Source of the DNA: Actinoalloteichus caeruleus DSM 43889
Lineage (GTDB): Bacteria > Actinomycetota > Actinomycetes > Mycobacteriales > Pseudonocardiaceae
DNA: 64,000 nt
Assembly (NCBI RefSeq): GCF_000429185.2
Contig: NZ_AUBJ02000001.1
Coordinates: 2,666,001 to 2,730,000 of the forward strand
Direction: 5' to 3'
Below the pieces are notes generated by a model. The model was not told the DNA's origin. It did not search any database and saw only the letters and a list, made by a program, of their open reading frames with translations. A program made the position numbers and the translations under genes. Positions 46,380-50,801 of this stretch are shown piece after piece. How positions within the stretch are numbered: the first letter of the stretch is position 1; each line of letters begins with the position of its first letter.

Positions 46380-46620
46380 GGTCCCGGCAGCGGTCGCCGG
46401 GCAGAGCCACCAGGACGGGCGCGCGCCGCATCGGAGGACCGGCGGACCCCACCTCGCTCCCGCTGCTGACGTGGTGGCGGCCGTCCGCCCCAGGGGCAGG
46501 GGCAGGGCCGGGTCCGCGCTCACCACCGCGCGGCCCCCAGGCGGCCAGCCGGGCCGGGTGACGGGGCCCCAGGGCACGGGGCGACATGCGGGACGGAGCC
46601 GCCGGTCCCACGATGGGGAC

Positions 46621-47703
46621 ATGGCGCTCCCGCTGGCTCCTCCCGTCGCTCCCATGCTCGCCAGGCCGGTCGCCGATCTGCCCGCCGGGGACTACCTCTT
46701 CGAACCCAAGTGGGACGGCTTCCGCTGCCTGGTGTTCCGGGACGGCGAGGACGTCGTCCTCCAGTCCCGCACCGGCAAGTCGTTGGACCGGTACTTCCCG
46801 GAGGTGGTGCGGGAGGTCCGCGATCGGCTCCCGGCCGGGGCCGTCGTCGACGGGGAGCTCGTGGTCGCGGTCGGCGACCGGCTGGACTTCGACGCGATGT
46901 CGGAACGCATTCACCCCGCCGAGTCCCGGGTTCGGGCACTGGCGGAACGGACGCCGGCCACCTTCGTCGCCTTCGACCTGCTCGCCGACGCGAACGGGCT
47001 CCTGGTGGACGAACCGTTCGAGGCCCGCCGGGCCGCGCTGGAACGGATGGTGCCCGCCTCGACCGGCGGGGTGCGCCTCACCCCGGTCACCCGGGACAGG
47101 GGGACGGCGCGGCGGTGGTTCGAGCTCTTCGAGGGAGCCGGTCTGGACGGGGTGATCGCCAAGGCCGCGACCGACCGGTACCAGCCCGGTCAGCGCGTCA
47201 TGCTCAAGGTCAAGCACCAGCGCACCGCCGACTGCGTGGTGGGGGGACTGCGCTGGCACAAGGGAACCGAACCGGGGACGGCGGTGGGCTCCCTGCTCCT
47301 CGGCCTGTACGACGAACACGCTGTGCTGCACCACGTCGGGGTGTGCGCGACGTTCACCGCCGCGCGTCGACGCGCGCTGGCGACCGAGCTGATGCCGCTG
47401 GCAGTCGAGCCCTCCGACCACCCGTGGTCGTCGGAGGCGGGCGAGGGCCGCCGGGTGCCCGGCCAGATCAGCCGGTGGCGATCCACCGAGCAGCCGTGGC
47501 AGCCGCTCCGGCCGGAGCGGGTCGTCGAGGTGGGCTACGACCACCTGGAGGGGGCGCACCCGGCTCGGTTCCGGCACACCACGAGCTTCCTGCGCTGGCG
47601 GCCCGACCGGGACCCGGTGACCTGCGGGTACGACCAGTTGGATGAACCCGTGCGGTTCGACCTGGCCTCCGTGCTCCGGGGGGAGGTTCGTGGCTCCCCC
47701 TGA
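46621..47703 (+). CDS. ligC: ATP-dependent DNA ligase, LigC type
   Basis: A 360-residue ligase. The adenylated lysine is in YLFEPKWDGFRCLVF. Further motifs are SRTGKSLDRYFPE, VVDGELVVAV, FVAFDLLADANGLLVDEPFEARRAAL, DGVIAKAATDRYQPGQR and MLKVKHQRTADCVVGG, with a C-terminal OB domain. LigC enzymes act in base excision and backup end-joining in mycobacteria. It has no fused LigD domains. A second NHEJ polymerase gene lies 2 kb further on, which may be its partner. Confidence 0.92.
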   Translation: MALPLAPPVAPMLARPVADLPAGDYLFEPKWDGFRCLVFRDGEDVVLQSRTGKSLDRYFPEVVREVRDRLPAGAVVDGELVVAVGDRLDFDAMSERIHPAESRVRALAERTPATFVAFDLLADANGLLVDEPFEARRAALERMVPASTGGVRLTPVTRDRGTARRWFELFEGAGLDGVIAKAATDRYQPGQRVMLKVKHQRTADCVVGGLRWHKGTEPGTAVGSLLLGLYDEHAVLHHVGVCATFTAARRRALATELMPLAVEPSDHPWSSEAGEGRRVPGQISRWRSTEQPWQPLRPERVVEVGYDHLEGAHPARFRHTTSFLRWRPDRDPVTCGYDQLDEPVRFDLASVLRGEVRGSP

Positions 47704-47893: not shown

Positions 47894-49465
47894 GTGCCGC
47901 GCACCCGAAGCCACGCGGTGGGTCTGGCGCTGACGCTCGCAGCCGTCGTGGCGGCGACCTCGTGTTCGGCGGGTGCGTCCACGCCACCCCCGGTGGCGGT
48001 GGCCGCCGACCCGGACCGCTCGGTGACCGTCGAACCCGGGACCGACCCCGTACCGCTGCCCCCGCTGGAGGAGCCGGGCGCCCACACCATCCACTGGGCC
48101 GACTGCACCCAGCACACTCGGCAACGGCTCGGGCTGCCCCAGGAAGCGGAGACCAGGTCCTACGAGTGCGGCAGCGTGACGGGCCCCCTGGACTCACCGG
48201 AGCAACCGAACTTCGGCACCGCCACGACCCACGTCCTGCGCGTGGGTACCGGTGCCGTCCCCCTCGTCGTGCTCAACGACGTCGGCGGGGCGCCGGGCTC
48301 GTTGTACGCGGCGCGCCTGGCCGAGGCGCTGCCGGCCGAGCTGTTGGAGACCTTCTCGCTCATCGGCGTCGACCGGCGCGGCACGGGCATGTCCGACCCG
48401 ATCAGCTGCGTCAGGGGCGACGACCGGGAGAACATGGTCGGGTTCGACCCCGCCGTCACCGACGTGGCCGGCCAGGACTCCCTGCACTCCTCCTCGTCGT
48501 CGGCCGCGAAGGAGTGCACCTGGTTGCTCGAGTACCGGGCACGGGCCTTCGACCCGGCGCGGACCGCCGGTGACCTGGAGGTCCTCCGGTTGGAGCTGGG
48601 GATGTCCCGGATCAACGCGATCGCACGGGGGGACGGGTCGGAGGTGCTGGTCTCCTACGCCCAGCGGTTCCCCGACCACGTCGGGCGCGTGGTCCTGGAC
48701 GGGGTCCCGGACCTGAGCTCGGACGCCCTGGCCCGGGCCGAGGAGCGGGCGGCCACGGCGGAACGCGCGTTCGAGGCGTTCACCTCGTCGTGCGCGGCGC
48801 GGGCGGACTGCCCGCTCGGTCCCGACCCGGGCGGTGCGGTGGCGGAACTGGCGGAAGTGCTGCGCCGGGAGCCGCTGTTGACCTCCGACGCGATGATCAC
48901 TCCCGGGACCCTGACCCGGGTGCTCCTCGACGGGCTCGCGGTGCCGGAGGAGTGGCCCGAGGTGGCCGAGGCGGTCGCGGCCGCCCGGGACGGGGACGGA
49001 GTGCCGCTGGGCACCCGGCTGCGGGACACGTTGTGGGAGGGTCCGCTGGACCCGCCCAGGTTCGATGCCTCGTTGGTGACCAGGTGCAATGCCTCCGCGC
49101 TGCGCCTACCGCCGAACCAGGTGGCCGAGCTCAGCGAGGAGTGGCACGCCGACTACCCGACCTTCGGCGGGCTGTTCGCCCAGGAACTGCTGCACTGCAC
49201 CGCCTGGCCGGTGCCGTACCAGGGGACCGAGGGCGACACGGTTCGGGGCGCGCCGCCGGTGATGGTGGTCAGCACGGCGACGGACCCGGTGACCCCGGGC
49301 CCGGCGACCCGTCGGATGGCCGGGCGGTTCGACAGCGCGGTCCTGGTCGACTGGCAGGGCACCGGCCACGGCGGGCTGGCGCGGTCGTCCTGCGTGACCG
49401 ACGCCGCCGTCTCCTTCCTGGTGGACGGCGAGGCACCGGAGAACGACGTCGTGTGCCCACCGTGA
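47894..49465 (+). CDS. Alpha/beta-hydrolase lipoprotein lacking the nucleophile serine
   Basis: A 523-residue lipoprotein (lipobox ATSC with C24) of the tripeptidyl-aminopeptidase-like family. The oxyanion-region VLNDVGGAPGS and the strand IGVDRRGTGMSD are present, as are the Asp loop STATDPVTPG and the His loop QGTGHGGLA near the C-terminus, followed by TAP-like ending SFLVDGEAP. At the elbow, where the family has G-x-S-x-G, this protein reads A-R-G-D-G (244-248), so the nucleophile position is glycine. A serine lies three residues on. It may be catalytically dead or use another serine. Confidence 0.8.
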   Translation: MPRTRSHAVGLALTLAAVVAATSCSAGASTPPPVAVAADPDRSVTVEPGTDPVPLPPLEEPGAHTIHWADCTQHTRQRLGLPQEAETRSYECGSVTGPLDSPEQPNFGTATTHVLRVGTGAVPLVVLNDVGGAPGSLYAARLAEALPAELLETFSLIGVDRRGTGMSDPISCVRGDDRENMVGFDPAVTDVAGQDSLHSSSSSAAKECTWLLEYRARAFDPARTAGDLEVLRLELGMSRINAIARGDGSEVLVSYAQRFPDHVGRVVLDGVPDLSSDALARAEERAATAERAFEAFTSSCAARADCPLGPDPGGAVAELAEVLRREPLLTSDAMITPGTLTRVLLDGLAVPEEWPEVAEAVAAARDGDGVPLGTRLRDTLWEGPLDPPRFDASLVTRCNASALRLPPNQVAELSEEWHADYPTFGGLFAQELLHCTAWPVPYQGTEGDTVRGAPPVMVVSTATDPVTPGPATRRMAGRFDSAVLVDWQGTGHGGLARSSCVTDAAVSFLVDGEAPENDVVCPP

Positions 49466-49505
49466 GGTGGGCACATCCAACGCCGTGCTGACCGGGTGAA
49501 CGGGC

Positions 49506-49601
49506 TCAGCAGCCCGCGCAGCAGCCGCAGCCGGGGCCGGTGCACCCGGAACAGCAGCTGCAACCACCCTGGCTGGGCGCGTGGCTGGTCGTGATCTCCA
49601 T
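49506..49601 (-). CDS. 31-residue cysteine-rich peptide
   Basis: A tiny open frame with an ATG at 49601 preceded by a perfect AGGAGG at ideal spacing (five bases). The first 13 residues (MEITTSHAPSQGG) have no cysteine. The rest contains eight cysteines in two near-identical units, CSCCSGC and CGCCAGC, joined by TGPG. It could be a metallothionein-like metal-binding peptide or a ribosomal peptide precursor with a Gly-Gly leader end. No modifying enzyme or transporter is adjacent. It lies between convergent hydrolase and the second NHEJ polymerase gene. Confidence 0.65.
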   Translation of the reverse strand: MEITTSHAPSQGGCSCCSGCTGPGCGCCAGC

Positions 49602-49769
49602 GTCAGCCTCCTAACGGGAACGCGAAAATGCCACCTCGTCGATCGTCGCCGGGCTCGCACCCCGTCGGGGACCGCTGCTCGGATGAACCGAGGAGGTCAT
49701 TTTCACGCCGGCGGTCATACCCAACGTAGTCGCCTGAACCGTTTCGGTGATGACCTGGACCGGTCCCCG

Positions 49770-50801
49770 TCAGGCCTCCCGATCGGCGGTTCCTCGCCCC
49801 CTCGCGCGGGAGGGCTGCACCCGCGCCGGTTCCCCCGGCATCTTGGGGTGGTCGGGTGGATAGGGCAGGTCGCCCAGGCCGTGGTCACGTTCGTCCCTGT
49901 CCGCCAGTTCGAGGAGGGTCTCGAGTCGGCTCGGGTGGGAGCGCAGGTCGGCGTGGGGGTCGCCGCGCCGGGCCACCAGGCCGGGCACGGTGCGGGTGGT
50001 CAGGTCCCGGGGGTCGACCTCGCCGAGCTCGTCCCACTCCACCGGGGTCGACACCGTCGCCGTCGGGCTGGCCCGTACCGAGTAGGCGGCGACGATCGTG
50101 CGGTCGCGGGCGGCCTGGTTGTAGTCGACGAACACCCGCCGCCCCCGCTCCTCCTTCCACCACGCCGTGGTGAGCAGCTCCGGTTCGCGGCGGGCGAGTT
50201 CCCTGGCGAGGGCGATCACGGCTCGCCGCACGGTCACGAACTCCCACTCCGGCTCGATGGGGACCAGGACGTGCAGGCCTCGGCCACCGGAGGTCTTGAC
50301 GAAGCCCGGGTACCCCAGCTCGGCGAGCAGCTCCCGGGTGAGCTCGGCCGCCCTGACGGCGTCGGCGAACCCCGTTCCGGGTTGGGGATCCAGGTCCACC
50401 CGCAGCTGGTCCGGCTGCTCGACCCGGTCGCGGCGCACGGGCCAGGGGTGGAGCTCGATGGCCCCGAGGTTGGCCACCCATGCGAGCACGGCGACCTCGG
50501 TCGGGCAGATCTCGTCGGCGCTGCGACCACTGGGGAAGCGGATGCGGACGGTGTCGACCCAGTCGGGGGCGCCTCGGGGCACGCGTTTCTGGAAGAACGA
50601 CTCGCCGTCGACGCCCGAGGGGAACCGGCGCAGGGTGGTGGGCCGGTGGTGGACGGCGCGCAGCACGGCATCACCCAGCGCCAGGTAGAACTCGACGAGG
50701 TCGAGCTTGGTCACTCCGACCTCGGGAAACAGCACCCGGTCCGGGTTGGTCACCCGAACCGTCCGCTCACCGACCGCCAGTTCACGAGCCTCGGTCGCCA
50801 T
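49770..50801 (-). CDS. ligD: Second NHEJ primase-polymerase (LigD polymerase domain)
   Basis: A 343-residue LigD-type polymerase, distinct from the one at 22791-23699. Motifs are VTNPDRVLFPEVGVTKLDLVEFY, LRRFPSGVDGESFFQKRVP, the catalytic DLDPQPG, KTSGGRGLHVLVPIEP and DYNQAARDRTIVAAYSVRASPTATVSTPVEWDEL. The start is the ATG at 50801, since the conserved N-terminus follows there; a longer frame upstream is non-coding. The C-terminal 50 residues are charged and variable. It resembles the polymerase partners of LigC-type ligases, one of which lies at 46.6 kb. Confidence 0.92.
   Translation of the reverse strand: MATEARELAVGERTVRVTNPDRVLFPEVGVTKLDLVEFYLALGDAVLRAVHHRPTTLRRFPSGVDGESFFQKRVPRGAPDWVDTVRIRFPSGRSADEICPTEVAVLAWVANLGAIELHPWPVRRDRVEQPDQLRVDLDPQPGTGFADAVRAAELTRELLAELGYPGFVKTSGGRGLHVLVPIEPEWEFVTVRRAVIALARELARREPELLTTAWWKEERGRRVFVDYNQAARDRTIVAAYSVRASPTATVSTPVEWDELGEVDPRDLTTRTVPGLVARRGDPHADLRSHPSRLETLLELADRDERDHGLGDLPYPPDHPKMPGEPARVQPSRARGRGTADREA

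Follow-up and report, generated by a model that had tools for sequence, protein, structure and literature searches.

The Peptide Gene and Its Surroundings

The window, i.e., the whole stretch of 64,000 nucleotides analysed here, carries on its minus strand a short gene for a peptide with eight cysteines (Table 1). Read from 49601 down to 49506, with the stop, the peptide is MEITTSHAPSQGGCSCCSGCTGPGCGCCAGC, and its cysteines form the units CSCCSGC and CGCCAGC. The original prediction had named this 31-codon frame with its two units, as well as an AGGAGG five bases before the ATG, and both are present as described, the latter running from 49612 to 49607 and followed by CTGAC; the strand, which had been left unnamed, is minus. 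The double cysteine motif has one occurrence in the window versus none in 60 first-order Markov resamples.

Table 1. Positions of the peptide gene and of the features around it in the window.
Feature	Position	Strand	Remarks
Gene for the eight-cysteine peptide	49506..49601 (stop included)	minus	31 codons; relatives in other genomes
Ribosome binding site AGGAGG	49607..49612	minus	5 nt (CTGAC) ahead of the ATG
Likely counterpart of the conserved promoter-like site, TCATCCGAGCAGCGGTCC	49669..49686	minus	85 nt before the ATG; assigned by eye; weak match
Weak -10-like hexamer	49642..49647	minus	spacing as in relatives; poor match to TAnnnT
Perfect 10-bp inverted repeat TGTGCCCACC / GGTGGGCACA	49452..49475		overlaps the end of the hydrolase gene
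TAP-like alpha/beta hydrolase gene, convergent	47894..49465	plus	Pfam PF08386

A LigD primase-polymerase gene (49773-50801, its end being at 49770) lies on the same strand about 170 nt upstream of the peptide gene, and the window holds no same-strand gene close downstream of it. The 60 nt downstream of the stop give a folding z of -3.1, and the inverted repeat is probably a terminator hairpin common to the peptide gene and the convergent hydrolase gene. An ATP-dependent DNA ligase is encoded at 46600-47703 and, together with the LigD gene, flanks the hydrolase and peptide genes. These end-joining parts are encoded apart: among 19 regions compared, the ligase cluster is present in 7 and the LigD primase-polymerase cluster in 6.

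The other searched genome of the window's genus encodes an identical peptide from coding DNA that is 97.9% identical, with two synonymous third-position changes; the flanks are 70% identical over 200 nt upstream and 94.5% identical over 200 nt downstream. Within the window's genome, the peptide gene is the sole strong match, and two weaker matches (E 0.43 and 0.88) are loci that do not contain the CxCCxxC motif.

Distribution of the Family

A profile was built from 34 members and applied with a threshold of E 0.001. In the host family, Pseudonocardiaceae, it matched 109 of 150 genomes and 40 of 46 genera, and conservation of the cysteine pattern in relatives, the check that the original prediction had set for itself, is thus borne out. 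The gene is not essential, since 41 of the 150 genomes have no match at this threshold. In a class-wide search, two of 394 genomes were positive, both from the host family; one further genome of that family was negative, as were all of the other 391; an order-wide search gave 33 of 298 genomes, namely the window's own and 32 labelled as the same family. A search of 41 genomes at a loose E of 1 found some match in 30 of them, many surely due to chance; its clear matches end at or beside the last cysteine and mostly stand behind ribosome binding sites.

A pattern scan of named genomes, in which the search pattern fixed the cysteines and the Gly-Pro pair, returned at least 117 stretches, and 114 of the 117 loci listed hold such peptides. 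The listed members come from Lentzea, Saccharothrix, Saccharopolyspora, Amycolatopsis, Prauserella, Kutzneria, Saccharomonospora, Actinopolyspora and other genera. The NCBI taxonomy places Lentzea in Pseudonocardiaceae and Actinopolyspora in a separate order of its own; the remaining six named genera we take to belong to the same family as Lentzea. A few source titles look misassigned, e.g., that of L114, titled Melainabacteria. One genus (g8) has two matches in each of the six genomes listed. One 21-residue member (L047) comes from Amycolatopsis tucumanensis strain ABO, a copper-resistant isolate.

Two loci, L080 and L093, were dropped from the set as long low-complexity frames, and a third, L068, as an archaeal fusion. 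In the latter (L068:1-254, minus), from a Thermoplasmata metagenome-assembled genome (MAG), the motif CNCCDECTGPGCGCCEDC stands N-terminal to an AhpC/TSA peroxiredoxin (Pfam PF00578); its cysteine motif is near-identical to that of the peptides, and the fusion was found in one of 31 genomes of its genus.

Database searches returned no named family. With E values up to 10 admitted, Pfam gave no match for any of 34 members, and a Pfam search with three members likewise gave none; three members submitted to NCBIfam gave no family match, Rfam gave no match over 49300-49900, and a plasmid search gave no match. Searches of the PDB by sequence and by profile gave nothing, the sole match, prestin at E 0.34, being noise. 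A description of the family was not found in a literature search over titles and abstract openings, with subscription papers largely outside the search. What is new here is an unnamed, family-wide and extremely short gene, not a new principle.

Peptide Sequences and Selection

Peptide lengths, which rest on choosing the start with the best Shine-Dalgarno score within 25 codons, range from 21 to 36 residues, with 21 residues at 50 of the 114 listed loci, e.g., MGGCSCCSSCTGPSCGCCGSC. The start codon is ATG at 105 and GTG at 9 of these loci, and a Shine-Dalgarno-like match of at least 4 bases lies ahead of the chosen start at 104 of the 114 listed, so that the ribosome binding site is conserved in relatives as well.

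The 114 listed loci encode 53 peptide cores from 101 distinct DNA cores. The invariance of the cysteines and of Gly-Pro in this set is imposed by the search pattern; residue 13, which the pattern left free, is nevertheless glycine in 114 of 114 listed loci, with four codons used. The other free core positions of the listed peptides are occupied almost throughout by Ser, Gly, Thr, Asn or Ala, and in a few cases by Lys; none of the 114 cores has an acidic residue, an aromatic residue or a histidine. Among 20 hand-picked weaker matches to the profile, which itself favours Cys-rich matches, 19 have eight cysteines and one has seven. In these weaker matches, the first unit is arranged as CxCCxxC, CxCxCxxC or CCxCxxC, and Gly-Pro may be replaced by GK, GS, GH or AP. 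The cysteine number is thus kept while the spacing shifts, a pattern more in keeping with a thiolate cluster than with a fixed disulfide scaffold.

Upstream Site, Hairpin and Transcription Unit

In the regions upstream of 73 members, motif discovery yielded TC-A/G/C-C-Y-C ... R-G-Y-GGT-R-T. A simple form of this site, tested with a pattern derived from these sequences themselves, occurs in 83 of 112 members, most often 82-84 nt ahead of the start, versus 152 of 20,000 control windows; together with a TAnnnT downstream of the site, it is present in 63 of 112 members versus 61 of 20,000. The spacing between the site and TAnnnT is near-constant in the aligned sites. To our knowledge, the site is unlike any metal operator. 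Downstream, the 60 nt after the stop give z < -2 relative to simple shuffles in 77 of 106 cases, with 1 of 106 among controls. In the window, the hairpin is clear and the promoter-like site is a weak match: the site model gives 6.5 bits and E 1.4 at 49640-49687 on the minus strand (rank 31 of 71).

The peptide gene is probably its own, monocistronic transcription unit. Its upstream site and hairpin are kept while the neighbours change, which indicates that the gene is self-sufficient. That the short frame is a real gene, as had been argued from its ribosome binding site and internal duplication, is strongly supported by its presence in 40 of 46 genera, the Shine-Dalgarno-like match, the upstream site and the downstream hairpin, and we regard it as practically certain that the gene is real and belongs to a conserved, protein-coding family.

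For the search for a regulon, a model was made from the sequences of 28 upstream sites alone, some of them from the genomes searched, and 150 candidates were scored per genome. Among 10 genomes, the peptide's own site ranks first in five (G019, G020, G008, G013, G023) and lower in two (G014, G022), and it is absent among the matches listed for G000, G006 and G007. Twenty other matches inspected in these 10 genomes show no repeated target, and the majority fall within open frames. Of the 20, two to four precede a possible gene start (L158 and L159; L173 and L166 are doubtful), L159 being ahead of a methyltransferase-like gene. The best match in the window's genome (L158, G000:C1:5304675-5304717) stands 26 nt ahead of the frame for a TetR-like regulator, a gene that is the clearest possible second target of the site. 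No regulon shared with metal genes was found among the site-model matches in the 10 genomes.

Gene Neighbourhoods

A TAP-like hydrolase gene is convergent to the peptide gene within 800 nt at 57 of the 114 listed loci, and a further 8 have too little sequence to decide; at the 49 listed loci without it, the peptide has 21 residues in 35. The hydrolase is a conserved neighbour of one gene type and is not thought to be part of the function. The second gene type, made up of the other loci, lies elsewhere: beside a thioesterase (4HBT) and a MetE-like gene in Lentzea and Umezawaea (11 loci each), beside a gene resembling the NADPH-dependent FMN reductases in Saccharomonospora, near GroES at two Amycolatopsis loci, and beside a cysteine dioxygenase gene in Tamaricihabitans. 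Each neighbour family was named from a single representative. Across the loci, no partner gene was found to be constant, the neighbourhood differing between clades, and no obvious metal gene is present among 17 neighbour proteins scanned.

Two further observations concern the surroundings. In five regions (L019, L015, L018, L020 and L032), the peptide gene is preceded on its own strand by a gene whose L019 copy (L019:8578-9396) matches DUF6319. Within a few kb of second-type loci there are MnmA-like genes (L040, L067, L077) and cysteine desulfurase-like genes (L040, L077, L079), named by eye, and the surroundings of these four loci are a sulfur-related neighbourhood.

Function of the Peptide

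In our view, the data are best explained by a self-standing gene whose product would be a cytosolic, metallothionein-like peptide of very small size, a reading that the sequences make fairly probable. The reduced peptide would be unstructured and would wrap around one small metal-thiolate cluster, e.g., of three to six Cu(I) or two to three Zn/Cd, with the CxC, CC and CxxC pairs as ligands and with flexibility provided by glycine, serine and the Gly-Pro turn. Its task would be to buffer or to detoxify a thiophilic metal, comparable to that of MymT with copper in mycobacteria. The family shares with bacterial metallothioneins the form of a small Cys-rich peptide with CxC, CC and CxxC pairs. Eight thiols in about 18 residues, arranged as these pairs with small flexible linkers, and a cysteine number that is kept while spacing drifts all suit a metal-thiolate cluster, and the peptide should be cytosolic, since inspection reveals no signal sequence. 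A search of 26 genomes, of which 16 belong to the host family, did not find PF02069, the SmtA type, while a control genome was positive; the peptide could therefore fill an SmtA-type role.

Fungal copper metallothioneins of about 25 residues, such as the Neurospora protein, with seven cysteines in CxC repeats, are similar to the peptide here in length, cysteine density and Gly/Ser filling; they differ in kingdom and sequence. MymT likewise is a small Cys-rich actinobacterial protein with CxC-type pairs. MymT provides copper resistance, has a luminescent Cu(I)-thiolate core and consists of 53 residues under RicR control (PMC10470581). The peptides here, in contrast, have 21-36 residues and a different promoter-like site. 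SmtA and the Pseudomonas metallothioneins are bacterial Cys-rich metal-thiolate proteins, as the peptide here would be, and the Pseudomonas protein uses Cys and His ligands in a Zn3Cys9His cluster (PMC7387436); the core here, unlike that protein, is without His at all 114 listed loci and matches no Pfam model.

The cysteines could instead be a reducible pool against oxidants or electrophiles, or a cysteine store, a role in thiol redox or sulfur reserve that we consider unlikely, though it deserves to be named first among the alternatives. It would agree with the high cysteine density, with the Tamaricihabitans member (L028) convergent to a cysteine dioxygenase gene, with the motif at the head of the archaeal peroxiredoxin (L068), and with the divergent neighbour resembling an NADPH-dependent FMN reductase at five Saccharomonospora loci and one Prauserella locus, named by Pfam for L131 and by eye or clustering for the remainder. 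However, none of these sulfur or redox neighbours is constant, the archaeal fusion was found in one of 31 genomes of its genus, and metal thiolates commonly show CxC and CC spacing.

The second function offered in the original prediction, the precursor of a modified, secreted peptide, fits poorly; we would give it little weight, here taken as a ribosomal, Cys-rich product that is modified, exported and cut after Gly-Gly. About half of the members do have a longer Cys-free N-terminal stretch, GG stands ahead of the core at 66 of the 114 listed loci, and the hydrolase found beside half of the listed loci belongs to a family that includes peptidases. Against this, only three residues precede the first cysteine in 52 of the 114 listed members, leaving no leader there, GG is elsewhere replaced by GT, SG, AG, GS and others, and the gene's surroundings differ from clade to clade. 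Among the 17 neighbour proteins scanned, of which one is a TAP-like hydrolase, there is no match to radical SAM, YcaO or ABC exporter families and no typical maturation enzyme or exporter. A neighbour at L050, outside these 17, looks like an ABC-type ATPase. Of the two functions originally proposed, a metallothionein-like buffer fits better, as judged from the sequences.

Equally improbable is a carrier of an iron-sulfur or copper cluster that, instead of buffering, serves a partner protein as its chaperone or cofactor: eight cysteines could hold a cluster and the conserved promoter-like site suggests a specific role, but no constant partner gene is seen and ferredoxin-type spacing is absent from the sequence.

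Mycobacterial polycysteine leader ORFs, which are reportedly leaderless and control an operon, to go by a title of Canestrari et al. 2020, are likewise very short Cys-rich actinobacterial frames; unlike them, the gene here is preceded by a ribosome binding site, and the window shows no gene close downstream on its strand. A cysteine-responsive leader peptide of this kind, attenuating a downstream gene, is very improbable, even though the frame is short, Cys-rich and actinobacterial and has strong initiation signals, since the amino acids and not merely a run of cysteines are conserved, and since the hairpin that commonly follows the stop and the convergent gene at 57 of the 114 listed loci, with nothing close read from the same strand there, rule against a same-strand target in about half of the loci. 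Both a modified peptide and a regulatory leader are disfavoured by the three-residue N-termini of about half of the members and by the lack of a constant partner.

A bolder reading appears to us improbable. CxCCxxCxGPxCGCCxxC may be a stand-alone metal-cluster module, reduced to as few as 21 residues under its own dedicated promoter, and it might be the smallest metal-thiolate peptide that a bacterial gene encodes. Instead of simple buffering, its role may be that of a specific cluster cofactor, and the same module may have been added to the archaeal peroxiredoxin.

If the peptide binds metal, a family known for its antibiotic producers has a metallothionein outside the curated models searched, which would suggest buffering of thiophilic metals without the SmtA type. 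Its size would come close to the minimum that can hold a metal cluster, making it a minimal gene-encoded peptide for metal-thiolate chemistry. The conserved promoter-like site points to a putative regulator, and genes of 21 codons are an example of how such peptides escape annotation.
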